From: a virus
Strand: one strand, 5' to 3'
IMG/VR virus record: IMGVR_UViG_3300025122_002258
Span: 1-27,649 of that record
Length of the DNA stretch: 27,649 nucleotides
This document shows positions 6,017-27,314 of the stretch, one piece after another. The notes beneath the pieces were generated by a model. That model had not been told where the DNA came from, ran no database searches, and saw only the letters and a list, made by a program, of their open reading frames with translations. A program made the position numbers and the translations under genes. Positions within the stretch are counted from its first letter, which is position 1. Every line of letters starts with the position of its first letter.

Positions 6017-6187
6017 AGCCAATATCCTTCTCTAACAGGGTTGATTCCGTCAGCAGGGTTGGCCTTCAACGATTAATGAGGGTTGTCGGAAATCCGGGCC
6101 TCGGCGGTCGTGTCAGGTGCCGCGTCTAGAAAGTTAATGCCTCGGGGCCACAGTCTATCTATATGGGTGGGTTGTCCGTCCTTCCGC

Positions 6188-13009: not shown

Positions 13010-13898
13010 GGTTTTCAGGTAAAGCGGCAACTGCTTGATCAAGCACGGGATCTCGAGTGAGGATGTTACCCTGCCCGTCCACAATGCCGCGCATCATCAG
13101 GTCGATGCGCTCAACCTTCTCGGATAATGTCTCTTCAGGGTTTGCCGTGGGTGTCATTGGATCCACACCGCTGATCACATAGAGCGATTGGATGAACTTA
13201 TATGCGTTGAGTTCCCCTTGCAGCCCGATCAGTTCAGCTTCCATCTGCTTGAAGGCTGCGCTCTTGGATGAGTGCATTCCCTCGAGGAAGGCGATCTTCG
13301 ACTTCATGGTCATCGCCAGATGGGTCTCCCAGGCATCAGGATATGGGTTCGGATCTCGTGTCAGGCCACACCCTTCAGGCAGGATAATCGTGATGCCGGC
13401 CAGCCGAGCCACATCAATGAAGAACCGAGCCCCTGTGAACTGAGACCGATACTCTTCGCCGGCCTCCAGATCGATGCCGTAGATGCCGATGGTCTGCACA
13501 CCCTCATCAATGGCCATCGCCAAGGCATAAGAGATTTGCGACTGAAACCACATCCGACCATATTTCTGGAAGTAATGGTCCTTGGGTATCACCTTACCCG
13601 CCGGCCAATCAGGCATCGGCGCCTCAGTAAAGATCATGCGTGGAGGTTGGACGGACTTCAGTTCCTCGAGGTATTCCCGAAAGCCAGGAGGCCAAGTGTC
13701 TGGCCCGTGTACCTCGAACAACCTATCCCATCGCTGAACATTCTTGCCGCCTGGACCGATGGTCCAGATCTCCCAATCGAGATCATTGACGGGTGCTTCT
13801 GTTCTGCTCGGACACGTTCCTAATATTGCTACTTTTCTCTGTTTGGGCTGGGGAACCTTCTCTGGCCCCCCTGCCTTCTTCTTACGCCTCTTGGCCAT
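13002..13898 (-). CDS. Rossmann-like phage protein of unknown function
   Basis: A 298-residue protein encoded just before terL. After a basic tail (residues 2-20) it has a nucleotide-binding-like start (VAILGTCPSRTEAP), D-W-E-I-W-T-I-G-P-G, an R-x-D-R-L-F-E-V-H-G strand, and later A-L-A-M-A-I-D-E-G-V-Q-T-I-G-I-Y-G-I-D-L (about 125-144). This order of glycine-rich start, A-L-A-x-A-I and G-I-D is shared in outline with Rossmann-type proteins including family-42 sialyltransferases and DUF115-like proteins. Proteins like this are common near phage terminase genes and their role is unknown. The C-terminal third is helical (residues ~215-290). I treat a transferase role as speculation only. Confidence 0.7.
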   Translation of the reverse strand: MAKRRKKKAGGPEKVPQPKQRKVAILGTCPSRTEAPVNDLDWEIWTIGPGGKNVQRWDRLFEVHGPDTWPPGFREYLEELKSVQPPRMIFTEAPMPDWPAGKVIPKDHYFQKYGRMWFQSQISYALAMAIDEGVQTIGIYGIDLEAGEEYRSQFTGARFFIDVARLAGITIILPEGCGLTRDPNPYPDAWETHLAMTMKSKIAFLEGMHSSKSAAFKQMEAELIGLQGELNAYKFIQSLYVISGVDPMTPTANPEETLSEKVERIDLMMRGIVDGQGNILTRDPVLDQAVAALPENHE

Positions 13899-13914: not shown

Positions 13915-14373
13915 TTAGCCGATGGTCATGCCGGCCGTCGAGCCAATCACATTGTATTGTGATGTGGTCACGCCACGCAGTTGGACTACGCCACCAGCGT
14001 TGTTTATCTTGGACAAGAACAACGAGGAACCAACCCCGCCTATCGCCGGCTTAAAGATAATGCTGGTTGCCGTACCACCAAAGGTGATCTCGGACGCACT
14101 GGTTGCGATGTGCAGTTCCAGTGACACGCCGGGAGCGGGTGCTTCGATCTCGAAGGATGCCGCGGTCGCCGTGCCGCTTGACAAGATGGTCATGCCATAG
14201 TTTTTGGCGGTCGATCCTGCGGTGGTAGTTGCCACGTTGTCATTGATGTTACCCACGTTAGCGGTCGGATATAGTGATTGATCAGCTTTGTCTCGTGCGT
14301 TCACGAGGTGACCAGATGAATTCATGCCGAGTTGACGGCCATGAAGTGAAGTAAGTATGTTTTCCTTAACCAT
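13915..14373 (-). CDS. Hypothetical protein, probable beta-rich virion protein
   Basis: A 152-residue protein with AGGAGC ahead of its ATG. Gly, Ala, Thr, Ser and Val dominate, with repeated short beta-strand patterns and almost no Cys or Trp, which is typical of phage decoration or fibre-head proteins. It begins MVKENILTSLHGRQLGM and ends GSTAGMTIG. I do not recognise the family. It lies with the 171-residue gene on the terminase side of the glycosyltransferase, so the structural module resumes here after the sugar island. Confidence 0.65.
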   Translation of the reverse strand: MVKENILTSLHGRQLGMNSSGHLVNARDKADQSLYPTANVGNINDNVATTTAGSTAKNYGMTILSSGTATAASFEIEAPAPGVSLELHIATSASEITFGGTATSIIFKPAIGGVGSSLFLSKINNAGGVVQLRGVTTSQYNVIGSTAGMTIG

Positions 14374-14969: not shown

Positions 14970-15653
14970 CTATTCCTTCTGCAAATAAGCCTTGAGTCCT
15001 ATCTCTGTCTCGCCGGGGCGAGGGTCAACTATCGCTGTGACCTTGTTGAGGTAGCCCATTCTTACGCCAGCCCTATGCATTCTTTCCTGTATATCAGTAT
15101 CGTTAACACGATTCCAGTGTTTTCTCCAACAGTCCCGGTTCCACTTAAAGAACCTCAGATAGGATCGATAGACCCAAGTCTGAGTTCCACCAACCAAGGT
15201 GCCATCATCAAGTTTGTATGGCATCACCACCTTGTTCTTTGAGGTGTGCATTGCTGACACGAATTCAAGCTTCTTCTTCTTGGCATATTTCAATACGCTC
15301 TCGAGGTGATCAGGCACCCACTGGTCATCGTCATCGATGCGCGCAATCCAGTGATCATTGGTGCATTCTTTGAGTGCTGCGTTGATTGGATCGACGGGTC
15401 CACAGAGCCATCTGTTCTCTGGTGTGTCAGGATAATGCAGTTTCTTAGGTATGCTTTTAATGAATACCCGTACCGATGGATATAACTTATTGTTATTCCT
15501 TACAAACTGTTCGACCTTCTCCTCGGTGCTGTCGGTGCAGCCGTGGGCAACAATGAGTACCAACATTGGCTTGTGTGTTTGTGCCAGGACAGATGGTAGA
15601 CAGGTGTTGATCAATATGTCTGCACGGTCATGTGTCGGTATAATGACTGTCAC
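14970..15653 (-). CDS. Family-2-type glycosyltransferase (GT-A fold)
   Basis: A 227-residue enzyme starting at a GTG (15653) so that the protein begins MTVIIPTHDRADILINTCLPS-like, the normal start of family-2 glycosyltransferases; longer versions would read through the acetyltransferase gene. It overlaps that gene by 26 bases. V-I-I-P-T-H-D-R (residues 3-10) is the nucleotide-binding strand and D107-D110 (RIDDDDQW) is the metal-binding DxD region. Such enzymes transfer sugars from NDP donors, with an inverting mechanism. It could attach a sugar to a virion protein or host glycan, but family-2 enzymes are not the usual users of CMP-nonulosonates, so its donor is uncertain. The DNA around 15,440-15,510 is visibly AT-richer than the structural genes. 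Confidence 0.82.
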   Translation of the reverse strand: MTVIIPTHDRADILINTCLPSVLAQTHKPMLVLIVAHGCTDSTEEKVEQFVRNNNKLYPSVRVFIKSIPKKLHYPDTPENRWLCGPVDPINAALKECTNDHWIARIDDDDQWVPDHLESVLKYAKKKKLEFVSAMHTSKNKVVMPYKLDDGTLVGGTQTWVYRSYLRFFKWNRDCWRKHWNRVNDTDIQERMHRAGVRMGYLNKVTAIVDPRPGETEIGLKAYLQKE

Positions 15654-16272
15654 GAGATCCGATGGGTTTACTCGGTAGAGGCACCGGCTTAACCACAGGC
15701 GTGGGGTCTCCGTCACCGTGTACCATCGGCACCGGCTTGCGGAAATCATTCTGTCCGACCACGAGCGTACCGGCTGGGACTCTTGTTTCGTCATTTAATA
15801 CTACTCCTTGAAGTATTGTTGCGCCGGCACCAACCTGACACCGCTTACCTATAACCACATCCCCACAGAGTATCACACCCGGTGAGATGATGCAGTGGTC
15901 ACCGATGATACAGCCGTGTCCTATCGATACTGAGTAGTTGATTAGGACGTTGCGGCCGATGACGATGTCCTCACCGATGTGGCAACTGCCGGCGATGTAT
16001 GCTCCTTCACCGATGACTGGACTTGTCATCTCAGCCTGAAACATCGAGGCATCCATGATGGTGGCAAACTGACACCCCTTGGCTTTGAAGTGTTCCCACT
16101 GCTCCAGTCTGGTGGTGAGATCTCCCACACCACAGATCACCTCATTCCAACCGGAACCGACGAGGATGGCAGTGACAAACCGCTCCTCATCGAAGTCAAT
16201 CATTGTGGTGGCGCGCTCACTTGACGCCCTGATCTGTTTGGCGTGACCGCCTTTGCCTAAGATGTATATCAT
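15628..16272 (-). CDS. legH: Sugar O/N-acetyltransferase, LegH/NeuD/PglD type
   Basis: A 214-residue protein with two parts: an N-terminal Rossmann-like sugar-nucleotide-binding domain starting I-Y-I-L-G-K-G-G-H-A-K-Q (residues 2-13), and a left-handed beta-helix from about 85 to 170 made of hexapeptide repeats ([LIV]-G-x-x-x-x). H119 in S-I-G-H-G-C-I-I-G-D matches the catalytic His of PglD/NeuD-type enzymes. In legionaminic acid synthesis this step acetylates the C4 amine made by LegC, using acetyl-CoA. A NeuD-like O-acetylation of the finished sugar is an alternative. The Pro/Gly/Asp-rich C-terminal tail after residue 175 is extra and may be disordered. The ATG overlaps the upstream gene as ATGA. 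Confidence 0.82.
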   Translation of the reverse strand: MIYILGKGGHAKQIRASSERATTMIDFDEERFVTAILVGSGWNEVICGVGDLTTRLEQWEHFKAKGCQFATIMDASMFQAEMTSPVIGEGAYIAGSCHIGEDIVIGRNVLINYSVSIGHGCIIGDHCIISPGVILCGDVVIGKRCQVGAGATILQGVVLNDETRVPAGTLVVGQNDFRKPVPMVHGDGDPTPVVKPVPLPSKPIGSRDSHYTDT

Positions 16273-16577
16273 CCTTTAATCCTCAAGCCTGATGAATCCA
16301 GGCCTACGCCTCCTCTGGGGTAAGCCATGGAGGTGGAGCTGTAGCTGCTGTAAGGAGAGCTGCCCTGCACATAAGATGCGGCCATCTGGAAGACATCACT
16401 CACGCCTTCCCGGTAACCGTCATGGTTATCTCTTTGGCTTTGTGTCTGCCGTTCTAAATAGCCCACCTCACGTTTGAGTTCATAGTTCTCTTGGCGAAGA
16501 CCTTCATTGTCGCCATTGAGCCTACCCACCTTTCTGGTCAGGCTTTGGTTCTGCGCGAATAGTTCTGCCTTTTTCAT
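16269..16577 (-). CDS. Small coiled-coil protein of unknown function
   Basis: A 102-residue protein. The ATG at 16577 is preferred because GGAGGA lies seven bases upstream, itself within an earlier ATG codon at 16589. Residues about 3-50 form a Leu/Glu/Lys/Arg-rich coiled coil (NQSLTRKVGRL, NYELKREVGYLERQTQ), followed by a Ser/Tyr/Gly-rich tail (SPYSSYSSTSMAYPRGG) and a short basic end. The coiled coil suggests self-association. It overlaps the acetyltransferase as ATGA. Nothing links it by sequence to the sugar pathway; it may be a phage structural or spanin-like accessory, but no signal peptide is seen. Confidence 0.6.
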   Translation of the reverse strand: MKKAELFAQNQSLTRKVGRLNGDNEGLRQENYELKREVGYLERQTQSQRDNHDGYREGVSDVFQMAASYVQGSSPYSSYSSTSMAYPRGGVGLDSSGLRIKG

Positions 16578-16636
16578 GTTATCCTCCATACAATAGATTG
16601 TTTGCCTTTGGGTGTTTTCCTCAGATGTAGATCATC

Positions 16637-17284
16637 TCACAATAATTTAGCTTCTGGCATCGCCATCTCTTTTAGCTCCACCACATCCTGGCGCATTTGT
16701 TTCAGGTCAACGTAGTGTGATAAGCCGGTAAAGGGTTTCACGCCGTTGATCCTGGCATAGACCTCCCACTCTCCTGCCCACATCCAAGCCCTGAGAATAA
16801 CCCTGCATGAATCACACCCCGGCGCCCTTAGAAAGTTCTTCTCATATTTCTCATCAAACTTAAAGTTTTTATCAGGCACCACATGACCAAGTGAAATCAT
16901 ATCCACATCTTCCGGGTATGCTCTCGGCAGCGTGTCACCTCTGTCACTCTCCGCTGGTTTCATGTGCTTCAACAAATTAATAGGACCGCTCCAGACTGTA
17001 CCACGGGTTGCCATACCATACGGTCCAGCCATCAGGTCCATACCACCACCGTCTCCACGCCGGCTGTCATCAGCCATGAATATTTCAGTTAGAAAGTAGC
17101 AGCACCAAGCAAACTCATTAAGTGTACCGATGAAGTTATTGAAGAAGTTTTGGATCTCTCTACTGTCGGTATCGCCATAGACATTGCCGCTGGTATATGC
17201 GGTCTTGGGGTTGGCCCGTTCCCACGCGAGTTTCCGACACATCTCAAAGTCTTTATCCTTGATTATCTTACTTGGACTTTTCAC
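16637..17284 (-). CDS. Unknown protein, possible PD-(D/E)XK nuclease-like fold
   Basis: A 215-residue protein starting at a GTG (17284) seven bases after GAGGAGG and overlapping the synthase gene by 17 bases; an upstream TTG start would have no better signal. I do not recognise the family. The layout helix with a Glu (about residues 55-68, GTLNEFAWCCYFL), then G-D-G-G-G-M-D-L (about 78-85), a Lys-containing segment (INLLKHMKP), a hydrophobic D-V-D-M-I-S-L-G-H-V-V strand and a late R-A-W-M-W-A-G-E-W, is reminiscent of phage PD-(D/E)XK-type proteins with a GDGGxD motif. This is a fold-level impression only. There are four Cys; the pair CDSC near the C-terminus is not part of a clear zinc site. 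Confidence 0.5.
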   Translation of the reverse strand: MKSPSKIIKDKDFEMCRKLAWERANPKTAYTSGNVYGDTDSREIQNFFNNFIGTLNEFAWCCYFLTEIFMADDSRRGDGGGMDLMAGPYGMATRGTVWSGPINLLKHMKPAESDRGDTLPRAYPEDVDMISLGHVVPDKNFKFDEKYEKNFLRAPGCDSCRVILRAWMWAGEWEVYARINGVKPFTGLSHYVDLKQMRQDVVELKEMAMPEAKLL

Positions 17285-18089
17285 GGTGGCGCCTCCTCTC
17301 GGTGACAATCTCGATCACCTCTTTTTCACTCTCCCGTGGTCCCAGCTTACCATCACCCATGGCTACCTCCAGTTGCCTGACGATGTCCACCATGAATGCG
17401 AACTCCATCGGCATTAGTGAGGCACAATGATCTGGTCCAACCCAGTTACGATCCAGGGTGATGTGTTTTTCGATGACCACTGCACCCATTGACACGGCGA
17501 TGACCGGCCAAACTACTGAGAGAGAGTGGTCAGAGAAACCTACGCTGTAGCCAAAGCCGTCGAGGGTCTTGATGGTTTGGAGGTTTACGTCTTCATCGGG
17601 GGTTGGATAAGCCGAGGTGCAGTGCATCAGGGTGAGGCGTTTAGTTTCTTCCATGTGTTTATCCATAATGAGAACAGCATCATAAACCCTCTCGTAGTTT
17701 GCCATGCCGGTGGAGAGTATCACAACACACCCGCTCTCGGCGGCGGCGATGAGGAGATGGGTGTTGTCTATGTCTCCCGATGAGATCTTGAGCGTCTTGA
17801 CTTTTAAGTCATCCACGAGGAATCTCAAAGATCCTACATCAAAGGGTGTGCAGATATACTCAATGCCTACCACCCGGCAGTGTGCCTTCAGATCGAAGTG
17901 ATATTCACGGCTGAGGGCTAGCTGCTCAAGGGTGATGCACCTATCAATGTCTGGTTCCAATAGTACAGGGTCATAGAGCTGGAACTTTACGGCATCGGCA
18001 CCACACTCCTTGGCCACATCGATCATCTCAGTGGCATAGGCTGGTGAGCCTTGGTGGTTTACACCTACCTCTGCGATGATGTAGGTCAT
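17268..18089 (-). CDS. legI: Nonulosonate synthase (legionaminate/N-acetylneuraminate synthase), no SAF domain
   Basis: A 273-residue TIM-barrel enzyme of the NeuB/LegI family that condenses PEP with a 2,4-diacetamido-trideoxymannose (or ManNAc) to give the nine-carbon acid. The ATG at 18089 overlaps the upstream stop as ATGA. Family motifs are all present: E-V-G-V-N-H-Q-G (7-14), K-F-Q (35-37), C-T-P-F-D (80-84), K-I-S-S-G-D (101-106), S-T-G-M-A (126-130), H-C-T-S-A-Y-P-T-P (156-164), G-F-S-D-H-S (184-189), E-K-H (207-209) and G-P-D-H (218-221). The protein ends about where the linker to the C-terminal SAF (antifreeze-like) domain would start; usual length is about 335-350. In family structures the SAF domain of one subunit caps the active site of its partner, so this form is minimal. 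Confidence 0.93.
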   Translation of the reverse strand: MTYIIAEVGVNHQGSPAYATEMIDVAKECGADAVKFQLYDPVLLEPDIDRCITLEQLALSREYHFDLKAHCRVVGIEYICTPFDVGSLRFLVDDLKVKTLKISSGDIDNTHLLIAAAESGCVVILSTGMANYERVYDAVLIMDKHMEETKRLTLMHCTSAYPTPDEDVNLQTIKTLDGFGYSVGFSDHSLSVVWPVIAVSMGAVVIEKHITLDRNWVGPDHCASLMPMEFAFMVDIVRQLEVAMGDGKLGPRESEKEVIEIVTERRRHREKSK

Positions 18090-18580
18090 GGCCAAAACTT
18101 TCTGTGGCAAAAAGGACATTCAGTGGCTGGCGAGTATCCAGTGGCTGGCGGGTATCCGTAGTCATCCAGTTGTTTATACATACTCTTCACAGACACCTTC
18201 CCCATATTTGGAACCCGTAGCCAGTAGGCTTCTTCGTAGTTATTTATTTCATCTAAAAACTGAACACCCTCATTCCTTAAACAGTTGACCAGTCTCGTGC
18301 CGTGCAAAACCCAAACTGGTAGCCGCTGCCCCCAGTGGTCTCTTAAATACAGCCACCTATCTTGCGCTTTCTCATATCTCCTCCCAACCCTTTCCACTTG
18401 AGAACGGGATAAGCCATACTCTTTCATTAACTCAGAAACCTTGGCCCCTGTAGACAAAGCCACCCCAATGGTGAGGTTTCTCTCGTAACTCGGTTGCCAG
18501 CGAAACCCTGTTGCACCCCAGACCCACTCGCTAAACTTCATCAACCTGATCGAATGGTCCCTCGTAGTCAACTCTTTCAT
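18086..18580 (-). CDS. Putative regulator: helix-turn-helix plus RNA polymerase alpha-CTD-like domain
   Basis: A 164-residue protein (ATG at 18580 chosen: ATGA overlap with legG, AGGAAG nine bases upstream; an ATG three codons earlier is the alternative). Residues about 37-72 look like a helix-turn-helix (ALSTGAKVSELMKEYGLSRS then QVERVGRRYEKA). Residues about 91-143 closely follow the pattern of the alpha-subunit C-terminal domain of bacterial RNA polymerase: L-x-T-R-x-x-N-C-L-R-N-E-G-V, a short helix, then L-R-V-P-N-M-G-K-V-S-V-K-S and L-D-D-Y-G-Y. This helix-hairpin-helix unit binds UP-element DNA and activators in RNA polymerase. A tandem hexapeptide (GYPPAT, GYSPAT) and a CPFC pair end the protein. 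It may modulate host transcription or the phage operon; that is inference. Local GC is about 42% at 18,181-18,300 by hand count, below the neighbours. Confidence 0.65.
   Translation of the reverse strand: MKELTTRDHSIRLMKFSEWVWGATGFRWQPSYERNLTIGVALSTGAKVSELMKEYGLSRSQVERVGRRYEKAQDRWLYLRDHWGQRLPVWVLHGTRLVNCLRNEGVQFLDEINNYEEAYWLRVPNMGKVSVKSMYKQLDDYGYPPATGYSPATECPFCHRKFWP
18121..18156. repeat. Tandem 18-bp repeat, 2 copies
   Basis: Two adjacent 18-bp units differ at a single base and encode GYSPAT and GYPPAT near the C-terminus of the helix-turn-helix/alpha-CTD-like protein. This is a recent in-frame duplication. Confidence 0.9.
18545..18571. repeat. 27-bp direct repeat, copy A (in the regulator gene)
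   Basis: Identical to bases 18675-18701, 130 bp away, in the same orientation. Here it encodes about residues 3-12 of the 164-residue protein (L-T-T-R-D-H-S-I-R). The flanking bases differ on both sides. Confidence 0.95.
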
Positions 18581-19602
18581 ATGTGCCATGGCTTCCTCAA
18601 TATGTCTGTGTTATCGAGATCTTGATTGACGATGATATCAGCTATTCTCTTGCTGGCGCCGAAGTCCCCAAACTCCTGATCGAATGGTCCCTCGTAGTCA
18701 ATTGCTCCCATGATGGCCTCTGAGATCTGGAACTGATTAGCACCAACACTCCAGATGGATTCACCCATCGGCCGGCCGTCCTGCCTGTCTCCAATGTTCA
18801 CGGTCGGAACCCGGAGATATGGCGCCTCAATAATCCCAGAGGATGAGTTTCCTATCACGGCGGTGGCGTGACGGCAGTGCCACAGATATTCACCCAGACC
18901 CCACTCGACTTCTTCGCCCACACCGGAGGTTTCGATCATATGTTTAATGACATCACTCTCTGGGTCATTGTTCACGCCGGTCCAATAGACAGTATAATCA
19001 GGGTAGTTCTTCAGCGCCTCGATCATTGCCTGTATGCCGTCGAGATTACCCAAGGTCTCAGGGTGATAGGTGCAGACAAAATACCTCTCTGGTTTTCTGT
19101 CCCCTAAGAAAGGCGTGAGGTTGTCTAGTCCTGGCGCGCCGGTCACATGGATATTTCTCTCCCCCATCTTTCTGAGGGTTTGGCCAAAGTCCTCATTCGC
19201 TACGCAGTGGATGTGTGAAAGTTTCGATATGGCGTGGCGCATATTGTCATCCATCGCACCAATGGTTCGCTCTCCTCCATGGATGTGGCAGATGGGAATG
19301 CGACTACAGGCGGCGGCGGCTGCTGCACAGAGGGTCTCCCATCTGTCGCCGAGTAGAACCACAAGGTCTATCTCTTGGTTTTTGATGTGGTTAGTGGTCG
19401 CCTGAAATACATAAGCACCACCCCACCTCTCATTGGTAGTCATCACCCTCACCCGACACCTCTTCTCCAGTTCCTCAATAACCGGCGTTAAGGGTGACCC
19501 GTCTGCCCTTCCTGACGTAACGACAAGACAGCGTCGATCACTTTTGTCTGCTGTTCGTCCGTCAGGGAAGTCGATGACGGCAGCATTACTACTCTGTTCC
19601 AT
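18577..19602 (-). CDS. legG: Hydrolysing UDP/GDP-N-acetylhexosamine 2-epimerase, LegG/NeuC type
   Basis: A 341-residue enzyme of the NeuC/LegG family, which inverts C2 and hydrolyses the nucleotide from a sugar-nucleotide, releasing the 2,4-diacetamido-trideoxymannose (LegG) or ManNAc (NeuC). Motifs: V-V-T-S-G-R-A-D-G (27-35, variant of T-G-T-R-A-D-Y-G), L-G-D-R-W-E (84-89), H-I-H-G-G-E (106-111), T-G-A-P-G-L-D (154-160), T-Y-H-P-E-T (178-183), G-N-S-S-S-G-I-I-E-A-P (251-261) and G-D-R-Q-D-G-R (271-277). No ATG, GTG or TTG occurs between the ATG at 19602 and the first conserved strand, so the gene must overlap the aminotransferase by 115 bases, unusual for this operon. The dehydratase and aminotransferase beside it favour LegG over NeuC. 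Confidence 0.9.
   Translation of the reverse strand: MEQSSNAAVIDFPDGRTADKSDRRCLVVTSGRADGSPLTPVIEELEKRCRVRVMTTNERWGGAYVFQATTNHIKNQEIDLVVLLGDRWETLCAAAAAACSRIPICHIHGGERTIGAMDDNMRHAISKLSHIHCVANEDFGQTLRKMGERNIHVTGAPGLDNLTPFLGDRKPERYFVCTYHPETLGNLDGIQAMIEALKNYPDYTVYWTGVNNDPESDVIKHMIETSGVGEEVEWGLGEYLWHCRHATAVIGNSSSGIIEAPYLRVPTVNIGDRQDGRPMGESIWSVGANQFQISEAIMGAIDYEGPFDQEFGDFGASKRIADIIVNQDLDNTDILRKPWHI
18675..18701. repeat. 27-bp direct repeat, copy B (in legG)
   Basis: Identical to 18545-18571. Here it encodes D-Y-E-G-P-F-D-Q in the epimerase, a family-typical region near the C-terminus, so this copy is probably the source. The two copies are read in different frames. Confidence 0.95.
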
Positions 19603-20477
19603 ATCTTTTCTGTAACCTCCAAGTTTCCCCGAGGGCAATCTTTCCATGGTGCCTGTAGGTGAAGTGGTTCCCAAAATCCAGCAGCACCGATACCCAGCTC
19701 GTTGAGTTTATGAATGTGGTTCATCGCTTCATGCGTTTGGTATCCTGAGATCCAACAAGCCGAACCCTCACTGTGAGGGACAGGATCATAAGGCAGTTCT
19801 TCTTTATACCGCTGAGAAATGCCACGCTTTTTCTTTACGAACTCATCCAGCCTGGACATCTGCGCCACACCGATGGCAGCATTCACATTTGGCATGGCGT
19901 AGTTAAATCCCTTGGAATGATAGTTGTAGTTGCCGGCATTGGCGTGACCCATCAGACCCCTGATCTTATGTTCCCGCTCAATGTTGTCTCCAACTATCGC
20001 CCCTCCTCCTCCGGTGGTTATTGTCTTGTTGCCGTTGAAAGAGAGACACGCCAGCTTATATTTCCCTCCCACCTCTCCGCTGCCTATTGAACAAGCGGCA
20101 TCGACCAAAGTGCCACGGGCATAGTTACCGAAAGTCTCCACCACTAAATCCGAACCCGCGTGATCAGCAACCCAAGTTTCCGGGTCTACATCACTGAAGG
20201 ATATTTCTGCCCCAACCATAGCCACGGCATTGGCAGTAGCGGCGAATGTATAGCTTGGCATATAAACCCCATCAGTCCAGCCCAAGACGGACAAGGCAAG
20301 GTGGAGCGCCGAAGTTCCGCTACAGGTCGCTACGCACCATGCCCGTCCCGTGGCCGAGGCCACAAGCTCTTCAAATTCTTTTACATATTTACCCTGACAG
20401 GGTTCATTATCCATGATAGCTCGAGAAACCAATTGCTCCTCATAAGATCCCATGTTCGGCACCAACAACGGTATCAT
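19488..20477 (-). CDS. legC: PLP-dependent sugar aminotransferase, LegC type (DegT/DnrJ/EryC1)
   Basis: A 329-residue aminotransferase. C-S-G-T-S-A-L-H-L-A-L (52-62) is the phosphate-binding segment, D126 in L-V-D-A-A-C-S binds the pyridine nitrogen, and K151 in S-F-N-G-N-K-T-I-T-T-G-G-G-G is the PLP Schiff-base lysine. The F-N-G-N-K form of the Lys motif is characteristic of LegC-like enzymes, which aminate the 4-keto-6-deoxy sugar made by LegB using glutamate. Length is somewhat below the family norm (about 370-385), with shortened internal loops. It overlaps legB as ATGA and legG by 115 bases. The acetyltransferase gene for the next step lies 4 kb downstream. Confidence 0.92.
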   Translation of the reverse strand: MIPLLVPNMGSYEEQLVSRAIMDNEPCQGKYVKEFEELVASATGRAWCVATCSGTSALHLALSVLGWTDGVYMPSYTFAATANAVAMVGAEISFSDVDPETWVADHAGSDLVVETFGNYARGTLVDAACSIGSGEVGGKYKLACLSFNGNKTITTGGGGAIVGDNIEREHKIRGLMGHANAGNYNYHSKGFNYAMPNVNAAIGVAQMSRLDEFVKKKRGISQRYKEELPYDPVPHSEGSACWISGYQTHEAMNHIHKLNELGIGAAGFWEPLHLQAPWKDCPRGNLEVTEKIWNRVVMLPSSTSLTDEQQTKVIDAVLSLRQEGQTGHP

Positions 20478-21439
20478 ATCCTATACTTGACCTCTCCCTT
20501 TAGATCTCCTATGTATTTTTTCCACCACTTCAGGGTTAGCTCGAGCCCCTCAGTGAGTGAAGTCTTTGGCTCCCACTGAGTAGCCTCCTTGATTTTCTTG
20601 GTGCCGGCCACCAGATCCATAACGTCATTGGTTCTTTTTCGATCTGATGTTGAGATGATATTCTTTCTCTCACCAACCAGCTTGTTGGCCAGCGCACCTA
20701 TCGAAATACTCTCGCCGGCTCCACAGTTATAGACCTCTCCCAACTTGCCGCTCATCATCGAGGCAAAGGCCATGACGGTATCATCTACATATGTCAGGTC
20801 GCGGCGTGGCGTGAGATCGCCGAGGTTGATCCGAGTGCATTGAGGGTCAAGCAGTTGTCTGATGATCGCTGGAATAACGGCGCGCTCAGATTGGCGGGGT
20901 CCGTAAGTATTGAAAGGTCGGAGCGTAATGACCGGGGTGTTAAAACTTTCGAAGAAGGACCGAGCGACTGCATCACCTCCGACCTTCGACGCGGCATAGG
21001 GAGACTGAGGAAATATTCGATGGTCTTCATGGATTGGGACCTCCTGCGCGGTGCCGTATACCTCAGACGTTGAGGTGTTGATAATCCTCTCTGCATCTCT
21101 GCCGGCGTGTAGCACATTCATCGTGCCGTTGACGTTGGTCTCCAGATAGGACCGTGGTGCCTGAGATGAGTGCGGCACAGACATCAGCGCAGCCAGATGA
21201 AAGATTACTTGTTCACCTTTCAACAGGTCTCGAAGTTGCTCTGGATCTCTAACGTCTCCATGTACACACTTCATGTCATGTCTGATAGGGCTGTCATCGA
21301 GCCAGCCAAACGATGACCAGCTATTATATTGTGCCATGGCAGTAACGTGCGCGCCCCCCTCAGTGAGTAGTCCAGCAAGGTAAGACCCGATGAAGCCTTC
21401 CGCTCCTGTGATAAAAACTTTAATGCCGTTCCAGTTCAT
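20474..21439 (-). CDS. legB: NAD-dependent sugar-nucleotide 4,6-dehydratase, LegB type
   Basis: A 321-residue extended SDR. T-G-A-E-G-F-I-G-S (11-19) is the NAD-binding glycine motif, S-T-S-E-V-Y-G (123-129) and Y-A-A-S-K (148-152) give the catalytic Ser/Glu and Tyr/Lys, and G-D-V-R-D (61-65) binds the adenine. The segment Y-N-S-W-S-S-F-G-W-L (38-47) is a close match to the Y-N-S-x-x-x-x-G-W-L signature of LegB-type dehydratases, which act on GDP-GlcNAc (or UDP-GlcNAc) in legionaminic acid and bacillosamine-like pathways. It makes the 4-keto-6-deoxy intermediate used by LegC, encoded next. The gene overlaps the HisF-like gene by 20 bases. Confidence 0.93.
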   Translation of the reverse strand: MNWNGIKVFITGAEGFIGSYLAGLLTEGGAHVTAMAQYNSWSSFGWLDDSPIRHDMKCVHGDVRDPEQLRDLLKGEQVIFHLAALMSVPHSSQAPRSYLETNVNGTMNVLHAGRDAERIINTSTSEVYGTAQEVPIHEDHRIFPQSPYAASKVGGDAVARSFFESFNTPVITLRPFNTYGPRQSERAVIPAIIRQLLDPQCTRINLGDLTPRRDLTYVDDTVMAFASMMSGKLGEVYNCGAGESISIGALANKLVGERKNIISTSDRKRTNDVMDLVAGTKKIKEATQWEPKTSLTEGLELTLKWWKKYIGDLKGEVKYRI

Positions 21440-22184
21440 CCCTCACCTCTTGGCCGGCCGCATTCGCCGCCATCCTGATTTGATCCAACCCCACAGTTTC
21501 GTAGTGCAGGACATGAGCCATCGCCACGCCGTCTGCACCATAGTCGAACGCTTCCACCACATCCTTACTTTCTCCCACACCTCCTCCGTAGATGATGGGG
21601 ACGGTTGAGGAGGAGATGCCTTCAAGAAGTCGGCTATCAATTCCTTTTGTTGTTCCTTCACATCCGACAGATGTGACAAGTATTTCTCCAGCGCCTCGAC
21701 GGATTCCTTCAGCCGCCCAACTAACTGCATCAATTCCTGACGGGTCTCTTCCACCGTCTGTCCACGCTTCGTAGCCACTGTCTTTCTCCTTCGCATCAAT
21801 CTGCAATACTATCGATTGAGATCCAAACTTGTTTGCCAACTCCGTTATAAGGTCTGGTCTTTTGACTGCTGCCGTATTGAGGGCCACCTTGTCTGCACCA
21901 GATCGAAGCAATAGTTGAGCATCTTCCACACTACGAACCCCGCCACCAACAGTGAGAGGGCAGAATATGCCAGCACTGGTACGATCAACCAGATCACATA
22001 GAGAATTACGACCATAGAGACTAGCAACGATATCCAGGTAAATGATCTCATCGATTCCATCTTGGTCGTATTTTTCCGCTCGTTCATACGGATCCCCCAG
22101 TTTCCTCAGTCCCTCCAATCGAACCGTCTTGACTAGGTTGGGTGCTTTTATATCGAGCCGTGCAATTAGTCTCTTCTTTAACAT
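21420..22184 (-). CDS. hisF2: HisF2-like cyclase/synthase subunit for sugar amidination
   Basis: A 254-residue TIM-barrel protein of the HisF family. The ATG at 22184 gives the normal start M-L-K-K-R-L-I, and places the two catalytic aspartates of HisF exactly: D11 (A-R-L-D-I-K) and D130 (L-Q-I-D-A-K-E). T-V-G-G-G-V-R (78-84) and Y-G-G-G-V are the phosphate-binding loops. In histidine synthesis HisF works with HisH; HisF2 paralogues beside WbpG/PseA-type amidotransferases channel ammonia for converting an acetamido group to acetamidino on surface sugars. Here it directly follows such an amidotransferase (101-base overlap), which supports the sugar role. No other histidine gene is present, and no HisH-type glutaminase is encoded in the window. 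Confidence 0.85.
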   Translation of the reverse strand: MLKKRLIARLDIKAPNLVKTVRLEGLRKLGDPYERAEKYDQDGIDEIIYLDIVASLYGRNSLCDLVDRTSAGIFCPLTVGGGVRSVEDAQLLLRSGADKVALNTAAVKRPDLITELANKFGSQSIVLQIDAKEKDSGYEAWTDGGRDPSGIDAVSWAAEGIRRGAGEILVTSVGCEGTTKGIDSRLLEGISSSTVPIIYGGGVGESKDVVEAFDYGADGVAMAHVLHYETVGLDQIRMAANAAGQEVRDELERH

Positions 22185-23433
22185 TCTCCACCTTGTGTTT
22201 GAGTTCCCAGGCACCCGTCTTTTGGTTGTAGTCCCACAGATGACTGGGTCTGAACCTGTTGCAGACGGTTTCAAAGTGAAACTCATCACACCCCACATAG
22301 GGGAGAAACTCTTCCAAACAATTTATGGGGTATTCCCCATCGTATTTCCGAACAAGCGCGACAGCCTCTTCGCGTGTGATTTCTCCGTCTCGGATCTCAT
22401 GTGCGGCGTCAGAGGTGCATCGGCCCATGCCGAATTTGAGAAAGCTGAAGAAGTAGTGCGGGTCATCCAGCGCATCATCGAGCGATGCATACTTTGAATA
22501 GGTGCCGGTTGATCTACCGGCGGGGTTGCCTTCAAAGCCTGTGTGTTCGGATGCATAATAATAGTTCTCCTGTGGGTGCCACTTCCGGTAATAACCAAAC
22601 CAGTGATATTCTGGGAGGGTCTCGACTATCGGTTGGGAATAAAAGCATGTTGCCTCAACCAACTCGCTCAGGGAGAAGCAGCCCAACTCATAGCCGAGGT
22701 CGAGAAGTTTCCGCGCTCCTCCACCTTTTAGATAGACACGCTCCCAATCATCGAAGTCCCACCCCGGCTTATTGTTAGCTGATGGATCACCACCATATTC
22801 TGCTTCTTGGTTTTCCCCACCAAAGATCAGGTTAATACCATGGTGCTTGGCGATGTGCAGGGGATAGTAAAGTTGACCCCAGACAAAGGGCAGGAACGGA
22901 TCACCGATGAACTCCATCGACAACCGAGCCAGCTTCCGGTGAATGATGCCGCCGGGGAAGCCCATCTGTACATCAAACCCTGAGTGAATGAACGACTGCA
23001 TATTCTTCCAACCGATGTCGGTGTGTTTGAACGGCGCCCACGTAACACAGAGCGGGTTCATGCCATGCTCATGCTTGAGCCGGTGGGCAATCATTGAGGC
23101 ATCCTTGCCCCCGGAACAGGGGACGACCACATCGTAGCCGCGCGCTGACCCGTGTTGCTGAAGGAACAGATCCTCCCCACCCAGACGGTGCTTGGCGGTG
23201 AGGTGTCCTAACTCCACCGCCCGTGCCAGCCAATCTATTGTCCCGTCAGTCTTGGTTTCTGCATACCGACAGGCCGAGCAGACGCCCTCATCATCAAAGA
23301 CTATGCGCGGTCGCTGGTTGCTGAGAACACACCGCTTGCAGAAGACCACCTCGGTTGGTGTGGTTTGCTCATCAAGGCTGTGTGCCTCGGCTCTTACTCT
23401 CTGCTCTACTTCATCTGACCATAGTTCAATCAT
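22084..23433 (-). CDS. N-acetyl-sugar amidotransferase (WbpG/PseA family)
   Basis: A 449-residue ATP-dependent amidotransferase. N-terminal Cys pairs C32-x2-C35 and C52-x2-C55 (F-C-K-R-C and G-V-C-S-A-C) form the zinc site characteristic of the family, and S-G-G-K-D-A-S (107-113) is the PP-loop that adenylates the substrate. These enzymes turn an N-acetyl group into an acetamidino group on nonulosonic acids or uronic-acid derivatives, with ammonia supplied through HisF/HisH2. Length is slightly above the family norm (about 370-400) because of a C-terminal Ser/Thr/Gly tail. The ATG overlaps the zinc-protein gene by eight bases with AAGGA upstream. The likely product modification is Leg5Am-type, but the exact position cannot be read from sequence. 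Confidence 0.88.
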   Translation of the reverse strand: MIELWSDEVEQRVRAEAHSLDEQTTPTEVVFCKRCVLSNQRPRIVFDDEGVCSACRYAETKTDGTIDWLARAVELGHLTAKHRLGGEDLFLQQHGSARGYDVVVPCSGGKDASMIAHRLKHEHGMNPLCVTWAPFKHTDIGWKNMQSFIHSGFDVQMGFPGGIIHRKLARLSMEFIGDPFLPFVWGQLYYPLHIAKHHGINLIFGGENQEAEYGGDPSANNKPGWDFDDWERVYLKGGGARKLLDLGYELGCFSLSELVEATCFYSQPIVETLPEYHWFGYYRKWHPQENYYYASEHTGFEGNPAGRSTGTYSKYASLDDALDDPHYFFSFLKFGMGRCTSDAAHEIRDGEITREEAVALVRKYDGEYPINCLEEFLPYVGCDEFHFETVCNRFRPSHLWDYNQKTGAWELKHKVENVKEETNCTARYKSTQPSQDGSIGGTEETGGSV

Positions 23434-23638
23434 TGTAAATCCTTGGCACGAGTTCACCGTCGAGCGGCACGACCGTCTCCTCATCACAGGCCACGCAGTG
23501 AAGGACGGATAGAATGTTGGGTTTCTCCGCTTGCGTCATCCTGACAAGACCATAGAATATTTCACCACCACAAATACAGGTGGCGAGGCCATCAGCCTTC
23601 ATGTGTCGGGCAAGTCTTCCGGGTTTGAATTCAGCCAT
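23426..23638 (-). CDS. Small Cys-containing (zinc-ribbon-like) protein
   Basis: A 70-residue protein coupled by eight-base overlaps to genes on both sides. It has two Cys pairs, C-I-C in A-T-C-I-C-G-G and C-V-A-C in L-H-C-V-A-C-D, spaced about 25 residues apart, fitting a small zinc ribbon. The rest is unremarkable. Its place between a radical SAM/SPASM enzyme and the amidotransferase suggests that it serves one of them, but nothing more can be said. Confidence 0.65.
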   Translation of the reverse strand: MAEFKPGRLARHMKADGLATCICGGEIFYGLVRMTQAEKPNILSVLHCVACDEETVVPLDGELVPRIYND

Positions 23639-24569
23639 CGGTCAACTTCATGTAGTCAAAGCAGCTATTACATAAAGGCATAGTATAATCTTCCTCCGAT
23701 AACCTTTTGCGATAGGACACAATAGTCATCTCTTTCCAGATGTCCTTCAGATCAAACTGATTGATGTTACCGAGATTTGTGGTGCCATTGTAGTCGTTGC
23801 AACAGACCCGCGCCGTGCCGTCAAATGAGATGGCCAGCTTGTCGAACACTTCCGGGCAGGGATTGAAGTGCTTCTTCTCCACCGTCTGGCGCGCGGCCAG
23901 ATCCTCTGGAACGTCATCCATAAAATCAAAGGTGGTGTGGCCGACAGAAAGTTGATCGCAGAACGGCGAGAACTTTCTCTTGAATACCTCGATGGTTGAT
24001 GGGTGTTCGTCCGTCACCGTGGTGGACACTGAGATGAAGGGCTTGGGATGTACACCCCGGCGCCTGTGAAACTTCCGCACGGCATTAAAGAGATCGTCAT
24101 AAAAATCAATCGACCTCATCTCTGCATAGGTCTCACGGGTTGAACCCTGCAATGAGAACTTGATGGAATCCAAACCCATGTTGATCAGCATCTGCTGCTC
24201 ATAGTCTCCAATCTTGGATCCGTTGGTGTTGAGGTGGGTGGGTAGGAGGGCATCGGTGGCCCTCCTCAAGAACCGGAACACTTGGGGGTGCATCATTGGC
24301 TCTCCCCACCCGACGAACCGTAGCCCAATGACCTGGGATGCACACTGCTCTACGATCCGATCAAACGTCTCCCAAGACATAAATCCTGCCGGCCTGTCCA
24401 ATGAAAGATTGCCGACCGGACACATCCTACACCTGAAATTACAGGTGCTGGTCAACTCAACATCGATGTGTGTAGGATATTCTGGAAGCTCTGCGTACTT
24501 CGAGGCGTTGTTGCCTCGGGCAGCTTCTTCATACATCCATTGAAAGGGGTTCTTCGCGGAACTCATCAT
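23631..24569 (-). CDS. Radical SAM/SPASM protein in the sugar island
   Basis: A 312-residue protein. C43-x3-C47-x2-C50 (T-C-N-F-R-C-R-M-C) binds the radical SAM cluster, and W-G-E-P at about 88-91 is the SAM-binding motif. A C-terminal SPASM region is indicated by F-N-P-C-P, V-C-C-N-D and M-P-L-C-N-S-C, consistent with one auxiliary cluster. Such proteins often act on peptides or sugars and are found in polysaccharide clusters next to amidotransferases. The substrate here cannot be inferred, though it is probably carbohydrate or sugar-linked. The start is ATG at 24569 (another at 24566); no strong ribosome binding site precedes it, and a small hairpin sits just upstream. Confidence 0.85.
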   Translation of the reverse strand: MMSSAKNPFQWMYEEAARGNNASKYAELPEYPTHIDVELTSTCNFRCRMCPVGNLSLDRPAGFMSWETFDRIVEQCASQVIGLRFVGWGEPMMHPQVFRFLRRATDALLPTHLNTNGSKIGDYEQQMLINMGLDSIKFSLQGSTRETYAEMRSIDFYDDLFNAVRKFHRRRGVHPKPFISVSTTVTDEHPSTIEVFKRKFSPFCDQLSVGHTTFDFMDDVPEDLAARQTVEKKHFNPCPEVFDKLAISFDGTARVCCNDYNGTTNLGNINQFDLKDIWKEMTIVSYRKRLSEEDYTMPLCNSCFDYMKLTDG

Positions 24570-24587
24570 TGTGTGATTTTACACACG
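24570..24587 (-). other. Short palindrome between legF and the radical SAM gene
   Basis: GTGTG and CACAC arms flank a TAAAAT-type loop; the structure contains the legF stop codon and lies next to the radical SAM start, where no clear ribosome binding site is present. It could affect coupling between the two genes. Biological relevance is uncertain. Confidence 0.3.
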
Positions 24588-25142
24588 ATTCTCTTCAAAA
24601 ATCAACTGTGCTTTTTCAAAGTCCTCGAGGGTATCAATGTCCACAGATCTAGCCGCCGGCATTGGTACAAGCTTGGTGTCCTGTGTGTCCCAGTTGCCGC
24701 CGTCTTCCAGCCACTGGGTGGTGCCACAATACACCGCACCATTGGGAACTGTCTTGCCTACCTCCGCGGTTGCTGCCGGCACACTCATTGTTTGGTGAGT
24801 GTTAAAACAGTGATCTATGTCATCTGAGATTCGCAAGGGTGATGTTGGTTGGAGTAAAACCACACTGCCTTGCAGATTTCCGATGGCGTGTTTCAATGCA
24901 GCATATGAGGTGGCGGTGTCAGTGGATAAATACGGAGGACGGAGCAGCGCCACCGCTCCATGCTCATTAGCCAACTCAAGAACGTCATGGTCATCAGAAG
25001 AGACGATGATCTCATCGATGTATCGAGATCTCTGAGCTTCGAGGATTGACCAGACCACCATCGGCCGGCCGGCGATAAGCTTTTTGTTTTTGCCGGGAAG
25101 CCGCTTGGATCCCGCACGAGCCAGGATGACACCAACGATCAC
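24579..25142 (-). CDS. legF: CMP-nonulosonate (legionaminate) cytidylyltransferase
   Basis: A 187-residue member of the NeuA/LegF family that activates the nine-carbon acid with CTP. It starts at GTG (25142) after GGAGGA, overlapping the previous stop as GTGA. R-A-G-S-K-R-L-P-G-K-N (9-19) is the nucleotide-binding loop, S-S-D-D (48-51) the metal site, L-Q-P-T-S-P-L-R (96-103) the CTP/sugar-binding segment, and S-V-D-I-D-T-L-E-D-F (165-174) the conserved C-terminal Asp motif. The protein is about 40 residues shorter than typical LegF/NeuA (about 220-230), with shortened loops before the C-terminal motif; all key motifs remain. Confidence 0.9.
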   Translation of the reverse strand: MIVGVILARAGSKRLPGKNKKLIAGRPMVVWSILEAQRSRYIDEIIVSSDDHDVLELANEHGAVALLRPPYLSTDTATSYAALKHAIGNLQGSVVLLQPTSPLRISDDIDHCFNTHQTMSVPAATAEVGKTVPNGAVYCGTTQWLEDGGNWDTQDTKLVPMPAARSVDIDTLEDFEKAQLIFEENRV

Positions 25143-25795
25143 ATCTTTCCTCCGGCAGCTTCATATGTCTCGAAGGTTCCGATGTCCTGCCAGTGACCTG
25201 AGATGTAATAGGCCGAGACGTTGTCCAACCCAAGTAAGAGGTCTGGCATATCGATGGGTTGGGGTGGCACTTGCACCAGCGCAGATGGTGAGATGACATT
25301 GATGCCGGCCGACACCGGATAATTCTTAATGGGTTTCTCATCGATGCTGGTCATGTGTCCGTTCTCGATCTCGACCACACCGTACTCGACCTGGTGCTGG
25401 TAGAGTGCGAGGCACATCGTGGCGTCAGCCTCTGCCATGGTGTGGTGTTTTACGAGATCTTTGTAATCAAGCTTCGCCTGGATGTCAGCATTGCAGACAA
25501 TGACGGGCTCATCGTCAGGCACATAGTAAAGAGCGCCGGCAGTACCCAACGGTTCAGCCTCATCAATATAATCAATGTCACATCCGAAGTTGGATCCATC
25601 ACTGAGATAGTCTTTAATCAGTTCGCCGAGATAGTGAACTGAAATTATGAAGTCTGTGAAATCCTGACTAATGAATTCCTCGATGACCTCTTGGATCATT
25701 GGCTTTGCGCCAACCTCCAATAAAGGCTTGGGTGCATTCTCAGTTAAAGGGTGCAGCCGCTGGCCCCTGCCGCCAGCCATGATGACTACTCGCAT
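25139..25795 (-). CDS. ptmE: Sugar-1-phosphate nucleotidyltransferase, PtmE-like
   Basis: A 218-residue GT-A nucleotidyltransferase. M-A-G-G-R-G-Q-R-L-H-P-L-T (6-18) then P-K-P-L-L-E-V-G-A-K-P (22-32) form the activation and phosphate loops, and C-N-A-D (metal-binding D) is at about 95-98. The later Y-G-V-V-E-I-x-x-G ... D-E-K-P and the end G-H-W-Q-D-I-G-T-F-E-T-Y-E resemble PtmE, the enzyme that makes GDP-GlcN or GDP-GlcNAc for the legionaminic pathway. Campylobacter PtmE carries CBS domains that are absent here. A mannose- or glucose-1-phosphate specificity cannot be excluded, but the neighbours favour PtmE. The ATG overlaps the upstream stop as TAATG. Confidence 0.78.
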   Translation of the reverse strand: MRVVIMAGGRGQRLHPLTENAPKPLLEVGAKPMIQEVIEEFISQDFTDFIISVHYLGELIKDYLSDGSNFGCDIDYIDEAEPLGTAGALYYVPDDEPVIVCNADIQAKLDYKDLVKHHTMAEADATMCLALYQHQVEYGVVEIENGHMTSIDEKPIKNYPVSAGINVISPSALVQVPPQPIDMPDLLLGLDNVSAYYISGHWQDIGTFETYEAAGGKM

Positions 25796-26205
25796 TAATT
25801 CATCTTCTCTTTCTTTATCTTCTTTGCTGATTTCATCAACGTGGCCAGGTAGATGGCGTCCTTGAGGATTGCCTCATCTTCAGTCTCAATGAAGGCCTCT
25901 TCTTTGTCGTGGACTTCGACACGCTCAACTGCCTTGCCTTCGAGACGGTTGCCAATCTCGATCATCTTTTTCACATCGCCGTTGAGGATTGCCTCATCGA
26001 CCAGTTTCTCGGCCAGGACAGTCAGCTTTCTTTTACTCTCGCCGCTCCCATCCTCTTCATGGTATCTGTTGACCGCCAGCCTGATGGCCTCGGACCATGG
26101 TTTGTTTCTTCGAGTGTCGTGTGTTTTTACTTCGTTGCCTACAGTGAACTTACCCTTTTCATCGCGGTCTTCACCGTTGGTTTTCCCGTTGGCTTTCTTA
26201 GCCAC
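25795..26205 (-). CDS. Candidate terminase small subunit / first gene of the late operon
   Basis: A 136-residue charged protein starting at GTG (26205) seven bases after AGGAGG. The start K-G-K-F-T-V-G-N, then R-R-N-K-P-W-S-E-A-I-R-L-A-V-N-R-Y and a helical L-A-E-K-L-V-D-E-A-I segment, followed by I-G-N-R-L-E-G-K-A-V-E-R-V, match a small-terminase-like pattern (G-x-F-x-x-G-N ... P-W ... R-L-x-G-K) seen near terL in other phages. It contains an internal repeat, DEAIL, encoded by an exact 17-bp repeat at 25862-25878 and 25982-25998. The Lys-rich C-terminus could bind DNA. It is 12.8 kb from terL, an unusual separation. Confidence 0.62.
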   Translation of the reverse strand: MAKKANGKTNGEDRDEKGKFTVGNEVKTHDTRRNKPWSEAIRLAVNRYHEEDGSGESKRKLTVLAEKLVDEAILNGDVKKMIEIGNRLEGKAVERVEVHDKEEAFIETEDEAILKDAIYLATLMKSAKKIKKEKMN

Positions 26206-26318: not shown

Positions 26319-26603
26319 ATGAAAATCAGAATATGCCTAGCAGACGAAGCACCGCGCATCGGCTCTGGTCACCGCATCGTTGAGGTGATCAGCCGCGGCC
26401 CTAAGTGGGTCACTGTTAAGTATGCCCCCAAGGTAATACGCCGGCCGGGGCAACGCCTCGATGGATCCACACGGGAGCCCATCTATGTCATCAACCAAAA
26501 GTTCCGCGTCTCTGAGTGGGCGCGGTTTGAAAAGAAAGGAATTGATCTGTCTGGTGCAAAGCGCATTGCGGCATCAGCCCTTCATGTAACAGGAGACGCC
26601 TAA
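26319..26603 (+). CDS. Small hypothetical protein, first gene of plus-strand cluster
   Basis: A 94-residue basic protein, the first gene after the divergent promoter, with GGAG/AAGGA before its ATG. It starts M-K-I-R-I-C-L-A-D-E-A-P-R-I-G-S-G-H-R and is rich in Arg, Lys, Val and Ile, with a W-V-T-V-K-Y strand in the centre. No family recognised. The stop overlaps the next start as TAATG. Early phage genes of this size often encode host-takeover or anti-host proteins, but no motif supports a particular role. Confidence 0.7.
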   Translation: MKIRICLADEAPRIGSGHRIVEVISRGPKWVTVKYAPKVIRRPGQRLDGSTREPIYVINQKFRVSEWARFEKKGIDLSGAKRIAASALHVTGDA

Positions 26604-26884
26604 TGCAAAAAGCATACTTACATCTAATCCAATACGCCATCAACTGTGGAGCCATTGTTGATGTCGATGACGGTGGTGATCAAGATGAGATCCACCGCGG
26701 CAGCACCTTCGCCCAGGCAAAGGAAGCCGTCGAGAGTGTGGATGTTTCAACTATCACCGTCTACACCGGCACCGACAAAACAAACTTTGAGGTTGCCCTT
26801 GAGTATGGACAACAACCCGAAGAAACCATTTATGACTATTCAGTAACTGACTTCAGCGCCCTCTGGGAAGCTGTCTATTATTAG
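26603..26884 (+). CDS. Small acidic hypothetical protein
   Basis: A 93-residue protein, acidic, with D-V-D-D-G-G-D-Q-D-E in the first third and E-Y-G-Q-Q-P-E-E later. The start is in a TAATG overlap with the previous gene, so translation is probably coupled. The pattern is mixed alpha/beta and no domain is recognised. The acidic charge contrasts with the basic upstream protein. Confidence 0.68.
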   Translation: MQKAYLHLIQYAINCGAIVDVDDGGDQDEIHRGSTFAQAKEAVESVDVSTITVYTGTDKTNFEVALEYGQQPEETIYDYSVTDFSALWEAVYY

Positions 26885-26893
26885 GAGCGAGAA

Positions 26894-27106
26894 ATGGAAC
26901 ATCCAATCCAAGTCACCGTGACCAATGTCTACTGCCACGGCTCGATCTTCAGATGGATCGGCCACGACAAGCAGGGCAACTTGCGCCACATCAACTGGGA
27001 CACTCGCCAGCACGGTGTGTTTGTCGATGACCACCCCGATGTCACCCTACCCTTCGACGTTCTTTATGAAGAGGGTGAGGATAATAACTTTATTGAACTG
27101 TTATAG
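26894..27106 (+). CDS. Small hypothetical protein
   Basis: A 70-residue protein with AGGAGCGAG before its ATG, nine bases after the previous stop. It has a beta-rich N-terminal half (H-P-I-Q-V-T-V-T-N-V-Y, I-F-R-W-I-G-H-D-K-Q-G-N) and an acidic C-terminus (LYEEGEDNNF). Function unknown. Confidence 0.62.
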   Translation: MEHPIQVTVTNVYCHGSIFRWIGHDKQGNLRHINWDTRQHGVFVDDHPDVTLPFDVLYEEGEDNNFIELL

Positions 27107-27116
27107 GAGAAATGAA

Positions 27117-27314
27117 ATGGGATACAGAATATTCACTCGCACTTGGTGGAAGAAAAACCCGGACTACCCAGATGGCTTGGAGCCCCATGCTGGCCGGCAG
27201 ACCACCATCGGCAGAGCTGAGACTGAAGCAGAGGCAGTTGAATATTGCCGCCACTGGAACGCCACCCACAACCCCGGCAAACTTAGCCGGAAGGCAGAGT
27301 TCGATAGTTATTAA
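27117..27314 (+). CDS. Small conserved phage-type protein (TRTWWKKNP motif)
   Basis: A 65-residue protein starting at ATG 27117; an ATG five bases earlier opens a different frame, and this one is chosen because the product matches a pattern I associate with small phage proteins: R-I-F-T-R-T-W-W-K-K-N-P then G-L-E-P-x-A-G-R-x-T and ending N-A-T-H-N-P-G-K-L-S-R-K-A-E-F. The role of this family is not known. Trp and Arg/Lys richness suggests nucleic-acid or protein binding. AGGAGA lies eleven bases upstream of the start. A strong terminator follows 19 bases after the stop. Confidence 0.78.
   Translation: MGYRIFTRTWWKKNPDYPDGLEPHAGRQTTIGRAETEAEAVEYCRHWNATHNPGKLSRKAEFDSY

Follow-up and report, generated by a model that had tools for sequence, protein, structure and literature searches.

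We analyzed the window formed by the viral IMG/VR record IMGVR_UViG_3300025122_002258 at its full length (27,649 bases, positions 1 to 27,649) and found within a phage operon a sugar-biosynthesis island that covers nearly all of the predicted route to cytidine monophosphate (CMP)-activated legionaminic acid (Leg), a nonulosonic acid (NulO). On balance, we favor reading the island as a NulO glycosylation module of the phage's own, in which a CMP-acetamidino-legionaminate-type sugar would be put on a virion protein by a candidate transferase that we named GxxPS after its motif. A preliminary description of the window had proposed the legionaminic pathway at 15628–25795. Our evidence broadens that observation: the phage NulO module is nearly complete, recurs in related contigs, and includes a candidate transferase. 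No phage, to our knowledge, has been shown to carry almost all the genes for making an activated sialic-acid-like sugar.

Families were assigned from NCBIfam and Pfam profile scores in bits, set against the curated NCBIfam cut-offs. All seven claimed Leg activities proved to be intact open reading frames (ORFs) with family matches as proposed or close to it, encoded on the minus strand together with the structural genes, several of them overlapping; the other enzyme and structural genes named below lie on the same strand. The putative nucleoside diphosphate (NDP)-N-acetylglucosamine (GlcNAc) 4,6-dehydratase LegB (20474–21439) scored 345.6 bits with TIGR04180 versus 148.3 for RmlB and 41.5 for PseB, with the curated cut-off of 475 unreached. 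LegC (19488–20477), a shortened pyridoxal phosphate aminotransferase, scored 206.8 bits with TIGR04181 versus 147.2 for PseC, under a cut-off of 420, and keeps the catalytic lysine motif that is preserved in all Leg-type phages. An unrelated deoxyhexose pathway, the caveat raised in the preliminary description, is ruled out, as the LegB and LegC models outrank PseB, PseC, and the deoxyhexose families. The predicted hydrolyzing 2-epimerase LegG/NeuC (18577–19674) reached 226.6 bits with TIGR03568 (cut-off 235.9) and matched structures 5xvs and 5zlr. The NulO synthase LegI/NeuB (17268–18119, 283 amino acids) scored 231.9 bits with PF03102 (cut-off 22.1), its best NCBIfam score being 278.2 bits, and the NeuD-type hexapeptide N-acetyltransferase LegH (15628–16272) scored 109.6 bits with TIGR03570.

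Two of the seven assignments held at the level of the broad family. The sugar-1-phosphate nucleotidyltransferase proposed for a PtmE-like role (25139–25795) matched PF00483 with 121.7 bits, and no Leg-specific NCBIfam model matched it. LegF (24579–25142), a compact, shortened CMP-NulO synthetase of 187 amino acids, matched PF02348 with 83.5 bits; its best NCBIfam model was PseF (101.9 bits, below the cut-off of 205.7). It also matched the NeuA structures 6ifd and 1eyr and keeps the signature motifs of CMP-sugar synthetases. The motifs of the pathway enzymes are retained across the phages. As the preliminary description had noted, enzymes for the early amino-sugar steps were not seen in the window. 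The island genes without a Leg role are two small ORFs and, at 18086–18589 on the minus strand, a helix-turn-helix (HTH) or RNA polymerase alpha-CTD-like gene (PF03118, 26.4 bits), which is common only to the window and to G001 and G002, the two related records described below.

The pathway proposal was supported, and it was incomplete: a WbuX protein, a HisF-like protein, and a radical SAM/SPASM protein (rSAM2, 23631–24569; PF04055 and PF13186) lie unreported inside the same span. WbuX (22084–23487), an N-acetyl sugar amidotransferase of the kind that forms acetamidino groups, scored 267.9 bits with TIGR03573 (cut-off 203.2) and is the only island protein to pass a curated NCBIfam cut-off; apart from LegF and the nucleotidyltransferase, the expected model ranks first for the Leg pathway proteins, yet below its cut-off. 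The closest solved structure to WbuX is 8wex (297.8 bits). Its HisF/WbuZ-like partner (21420–22298), in which the domain begins near residue 39, scored 240.3 bits with TIGR00735 and 239.5 bits with TIGR03572. Both genes sit between LegF and LegB. In bacteria, WbuX and HisF-type genes form acetamidino modules with HisH (PMC11340318), and Legionella lipopolysaccharide (LPS) contains a homopolymer of a 5-acetamidino-7-acetamido NulO, according to a reference cited in PMC3694923. The pairing of WbuX with a HisF-like protein makes an acetamidino derivative the likely product.

The island is not peculiar to one contig. G001, another IMG/VR record (34,962 bp), is ~99.7% identical over the shared region, including the joins, and extends into more genes. 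The main region in which the two differ is ~990 bp in the window (26321–27310) and ~470 bp in G001 (34423–34893) and holds small plus-strand ORFs; in addition, ~189 bp of the window (8461–8649, within ORF 8298–8723) did not align to G001. G002 (29,470 bp) keeps the gene order with pathway proteins that are mostly 43–61% identical, LegH being ~36% identical. Between the window and G002, the proportion of synonymous differences (pS) in the pathway genes is 0.65–0.83, near saturation, and that of nonsynonymous differences (pN) is 0.26–0.41, within the range of many structural genes. Because synonymous sites are near saturation while pN stays this low, the pathway genes are maintained under purifying selection. 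Three further contigs (G005, G013, and G020) carry NulO islands, one Leg and two Pse (pseudaminic acid), and exact terminal direct repeats of 77–127 bp, which fits complete genomes that were assembled as circles; G028 has an exact terminal direct repeat without a NulO island. Metabolic genes of bacterial type on a metagenomic contig could have come from a bacterial sugar cluster misjoined to a phage contig, the chimera that the preliminary description had warned of. The near-identity of G001 across the joins, the gene order of G002, and the islands in terminal-repeat contigs rule this out; recurrence in independent contigs leaves an assembly artifact with a negligible probability.

The trait belongs to a whole lineage of uncultured phages and occurs in a Leg and a Pse version. 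GxxPS, a GT2 glycosyltransferase that overlaps legH (14970–15794; PF00535, 59.2 bits), and a second radical SAM protein, rSAM1 (6188–7081; PF04055, 30.0 bits), which is related to rSAM2 and adjoins the major head gene, all lie outside the span first described. NulO or WbuX genes were found in ~20 loci among 78 further relatives of the large terminase (terL), of which many lie on contigs too short for a decision; where 9 kb or more of sequence precedes terL, 12 of 22 loci have such genes. Leg-type islands occur in the window and G001, G002, G010, G012, and G013; LegB and the nucleotidyltransferase were not recognized in G010. The variant island of G011 (L129:1942-8110) retains the nucleotidyltransferase, rSAM2, WbuX, GT2, a GxxPS homologue, and rSAM1, plus a different short-chain dehydrogenase/reductase (SDR) enzyme, and has no NulO synthase; it possibly serves another sugar on the same module. 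The genes for rSAM1, rSAM2, and GT2 are present in all seven Leg-group genomes, including G011, and in no Pse-type genome.

Most NulO loci are Pse-type and encode PseB, a short PseC, PseF, WbuX, HisF, a PseH-like GNAT, and PseI, which in G005 and G033 exceeds its curated cut-off. A dedicated scan returned 76 viral loci with Pse-type WbuX; HisF is also present in 70 of the 72 informative loci, and a synthase of the NeuB family in 47 of 62. A methyltransferase-like gene stands just ahead of WbuX in 63 of the 76 (for example, L146:856-1482 and L139:12673-13290). The Pse-type aminotransferases of several phages (L018:2441-3073; G019, G020, and G025) measure only ~203–212 amino acids, with the lysine region present and the C-terminal domain apparently absent. 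Phage WbuX proteins of the Leg group and of the Pse type fall into separate clades of the WbuX tree, each with a support of 99 and placed next to different bacterial clades, so that the simplest reading is that phage WbuX had two origins. In 50,697 phage records, tblastn searches found no WbuX with either a Leg- or a Pse-type query, and NeuB-like matches (~30%) in three records only, and a narrow-pattern scan of genome contigs returned only a distant bacterial LegB. The open-licence literature searched, non-exhaustively and with the chance that a published precedent was missed, contained no description of a phage-encoded NulO pathway.

The candidate NulO transferase GxxPS (13002–13898, minus strand) adjoins terL. 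The window protein had no sequence family match; the Maf/MptE-like family PF01973 gave a weak match (E 0.073) in one of 13 GxxPS members and none in the window protein. Its predicted model (mean predicted local distance difference test (pLDDT) 76.8, higher for core residues ~20–180) contains a Maf/CstII-like core fold spanning residues 19–182, at 11–17% identity to the matched proteins. It resembles the Maf glycosyltransferase 5mu5 (VIA Z 12.1, 3.3 Å over 159 residues) and the sialyltransferases CstII and CstI (VIA Z ~10–10.5; 10.5 to 1ro7), and in a Foldseek search of the PDB, CstII was the top match and the only one below 0.001 (E 9.9e-4). Residues E62, H64, D143, and E149 are invariant. All 25 NulO-positive records that were scored carry the gene; eight records that lack NulO genes and extend 10 kb upstream of terL do not have it next to terL. 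These eight exclude L068 and L080, whose contigs end 2.7–2.9 kb upstream of terL. This co-occurrence is suggestive, and the Campylobacter jejuni legionaminic transferase Maf4 was proposed from a like co-occurrence together with mutant labeling (PMC9298399). A search of 398 genomes from a single bacterial phylum, which had no positive control, found no GxxPS homologue.

We consider the small protein gp13915 (13915–14373, minus strand) a candidate acceptor, no more, because it is Ser/Thr-rich (22–29% Ser+Thr in the family), adjoins GxxPS and its homologues, and recurs in G013, which holds two GxxPS copies. There, a larger protein encoded near the lysis genes has a gp13915-like C-terminal half; the duplicate GxxPS genes and the second gp13915-like domain lie at L127:13150-14978 and L128:13948-14649. 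Some loci that lack GxxPS still keep a member of the gp13915 family. A Maf/CstII-like fold beside the terminase, with a Ser/Thr-rich family adjacent to it, tilts the interpretation toward protein glycosylation.

The minus-strand genes run from ~26,205 down to the start of the window in the order small-terminase-like gene, sugar island, terL, portal, head, and tail, the island being placed between the small-terminase-like gene and terL. The operon opens with the small-terminase-like ORF (25795–26205), a tentative assignment from its position and 33% identity to G002 697–1143; it had no PHROG match. The large terminase (11420–13084; phrog_979 and phrog_2) follows the island, then come the portal (8723–10444), the major head protein (5162–6022), and the tail proteins at the downstream end, toward the window start. 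Among phage records, the best relatives of the portal are HTVC010P-type Pelagibacter phages (~29% identity). Right behind the major head gene lie two tandem, related small proteins of 89 and 96 amino acids (4573–4842 and 4859–5149), Ser/Thr-rich by eye, which could be head-decoration proteins and alternative glycan acceptors. Distant terL relatives (42%) occur in two bacterial genomes, with no NulO genes nearby, and they indicate no host.

With each reaction taken from what is known of the enzyme family, the favored module would work as follows. The nucleotidyltransferase would use a host sugar phosphate to make NDP-GlcNAc, which LegB, LegC, and LegH would convert into NDP-2,4-diacetamido-trideoxyhexose. 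LegG would release the 2-epimerized sugar, LegI would condense it with phosphoenolpyruvate, and LegF would activate the resulting NulO with cytidine triphosphate (CTP) to give CMP-NulO. WbuX and its HisF-like partner would use ammonia supplied by the host, perhaps by host HisH, to turn an N-acetyl into an acetamidino group. GxxPS would then transfer the NulO to a phage virion protein, gp13915 being the best guess, and the glycan, synthesized late in infection, may mask the particle or tune adsorption. The donor and acceptor of the transferase, the timing, and the benefit are guesses.

Several observations weigh against this reading. HisH (PF00117) is absent from 15 of 15 phage records, which may be incomplete (the control was positive in 14 of 14 genomes), and HisF is missing in G002. 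Host-derived ammonia is the simplest answer to the absence of a phage HisH. LegI matches only PF03102 in Pfam and lacks the SAF domain, with which NeuB enzymes complete their active site. The GxxPS model also matches MptE (Z 11.4) and thiamine pyrophosphokinase (Z 10.9), and the predicted fold alone does not decide between a transferase and a kinase. On the terL tree, the co-occurrence of GxxPS with NulO genes reduces to 3–5 independent pairs; it is not significant, because so few independent changes are available that significance is unreachable. GxxPS may not be NulO-specific, since G011 (31.5 kb) combines a homologue with WbuX and GT2 and lacks LegC, LegG, LegH, LegI, and LegF, and G007 (26 kb) has a distant homologue and no NeuB. 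Finally, the gp13915 model (pLDDT 58.8) is too poor to use.

Alternatively, the CMP-NulO could serve as a coat for the cell surface of the host (LPS, capsule, or flagella) that blocks superinfecting phages or alters host traits. Bacterial NulOs are mostly surface sugars, a lipid-linked sugar could be the substrate of GT2, flagellin is the target of Maf enzymes, and Acinetobacter phage enzymes that modify host NulO capsules are known (PMC12053666 and PMC6586298). However, the island holds no recognizable flippase, polymerase, or export gene, its genes stand among those for the head and packaging, and the candidate transferase and the Ser/Thr-rich protein adjoin terL; we consider such a host coat unlikely. 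It is also possible, and in our judgment quite unlikely, that the phage does no more than enhance or complete a NulO route of its host, or that it makes a different sugar. The SAF-less LegI, the short LegC and LegF, the missing HisH, the early amino-sugar enzymes unseen in the window, the incomplete islands of G010 and G011, and PseF as the best cytidylyltransferase model would all fit a partial or rerouted pathway. Against it, six consecutive steps are kept together under purifying selection, and a SAF-less LegI of 260–283 amino acids is common to all Leg phages and to a likewise short solved relative from Leptospira, 6ncs, so it does not reflect decay.

The virion-glycosylation reading can be extended to a broader proposal, which we put forward tentatively and rate a little short of probable: a widespread podovirus-like phage lineage would encode the synthesis of an acetamidino-NulO, Leg or Pse, and a new, compact Maf-like transferase that glycosylates its own virion, the sugar types having been acquired separately and defining particle glycan types, and the acetamidino module working without a phage HisH. 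Should the sugar prove to decorate the virion, phages would be producing a bacterial-surface sugar for their own use, which would bear on adsorption, host and immune recognition, and the evolution of glycan types. NulO glycosylation of proteins would then be available through a small set of enzymes, among them the SAF-less LegI and the HisH-less acetamidino module. The glycosylation of phage virions with NulO sugars can now be tested directly.

The Leg pathway of C. jejuni consists of LegB, LegC, LegH, LegG, LegI, and LegF with PtmE- and PtmG-type genes. The phage island shares its enzyme families and the reaction sequence from NDP-GlcNAc to CMP-legionaminate through LegB, LegC, LegH, LegG, LegI, and LegF, as summarized in PMC9298399, and differs in that its genes are compact and overlapping, its LegI has no SAF domain, and the early amino-sugar enzymes are not seen in the window. 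Like the bacterial HisF-HisH-WbuX modules, one of which lies beside neuB on an Azospirillum thermophilum plasmid (NZ_CP029359), the phages carry WbuX and a HisF-like gene beside NulO genes; unlike them, all 15 phage records lack the glutamine amidotransferase (GATase) HisH. The predicted core fold likens GxxPS to the Maf flagellin NulO transferases (5mu5) and to the GT42 enzyme CstII, whereas its low identity, the absence of a Pfam match, and the nearly equal fit of MptE and thiamine pyrophosphokinase set it apart.

Among viruses, mycobacteriophage capsid glycans have been linked to phage glycosyltransferases (Freeman et al. 2023, cited in PMC11256854), and the excerpts of PMC11256854 contain no description of phage-encoded NulO synthesis. 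Acinetobacter phages encode enzymes that modify host NulO (PMC12053666 and PMC6586298) and are not known to synthesize it de novo. The closest biological precedent, and the one case of a virus bearing such a sugar that we found, is HRPV-1, an archaeal virus with 5-N-formyl-legionaminic acid on its VP4 spike (PMC6137143). Both cases would place legionaminic acid on a virus particle, here as predicted from genes alone; in HRPV-1, the pathway belongs to the archaeal host and is absent from the virus, whereas here the genes are encoded by the phage itself.

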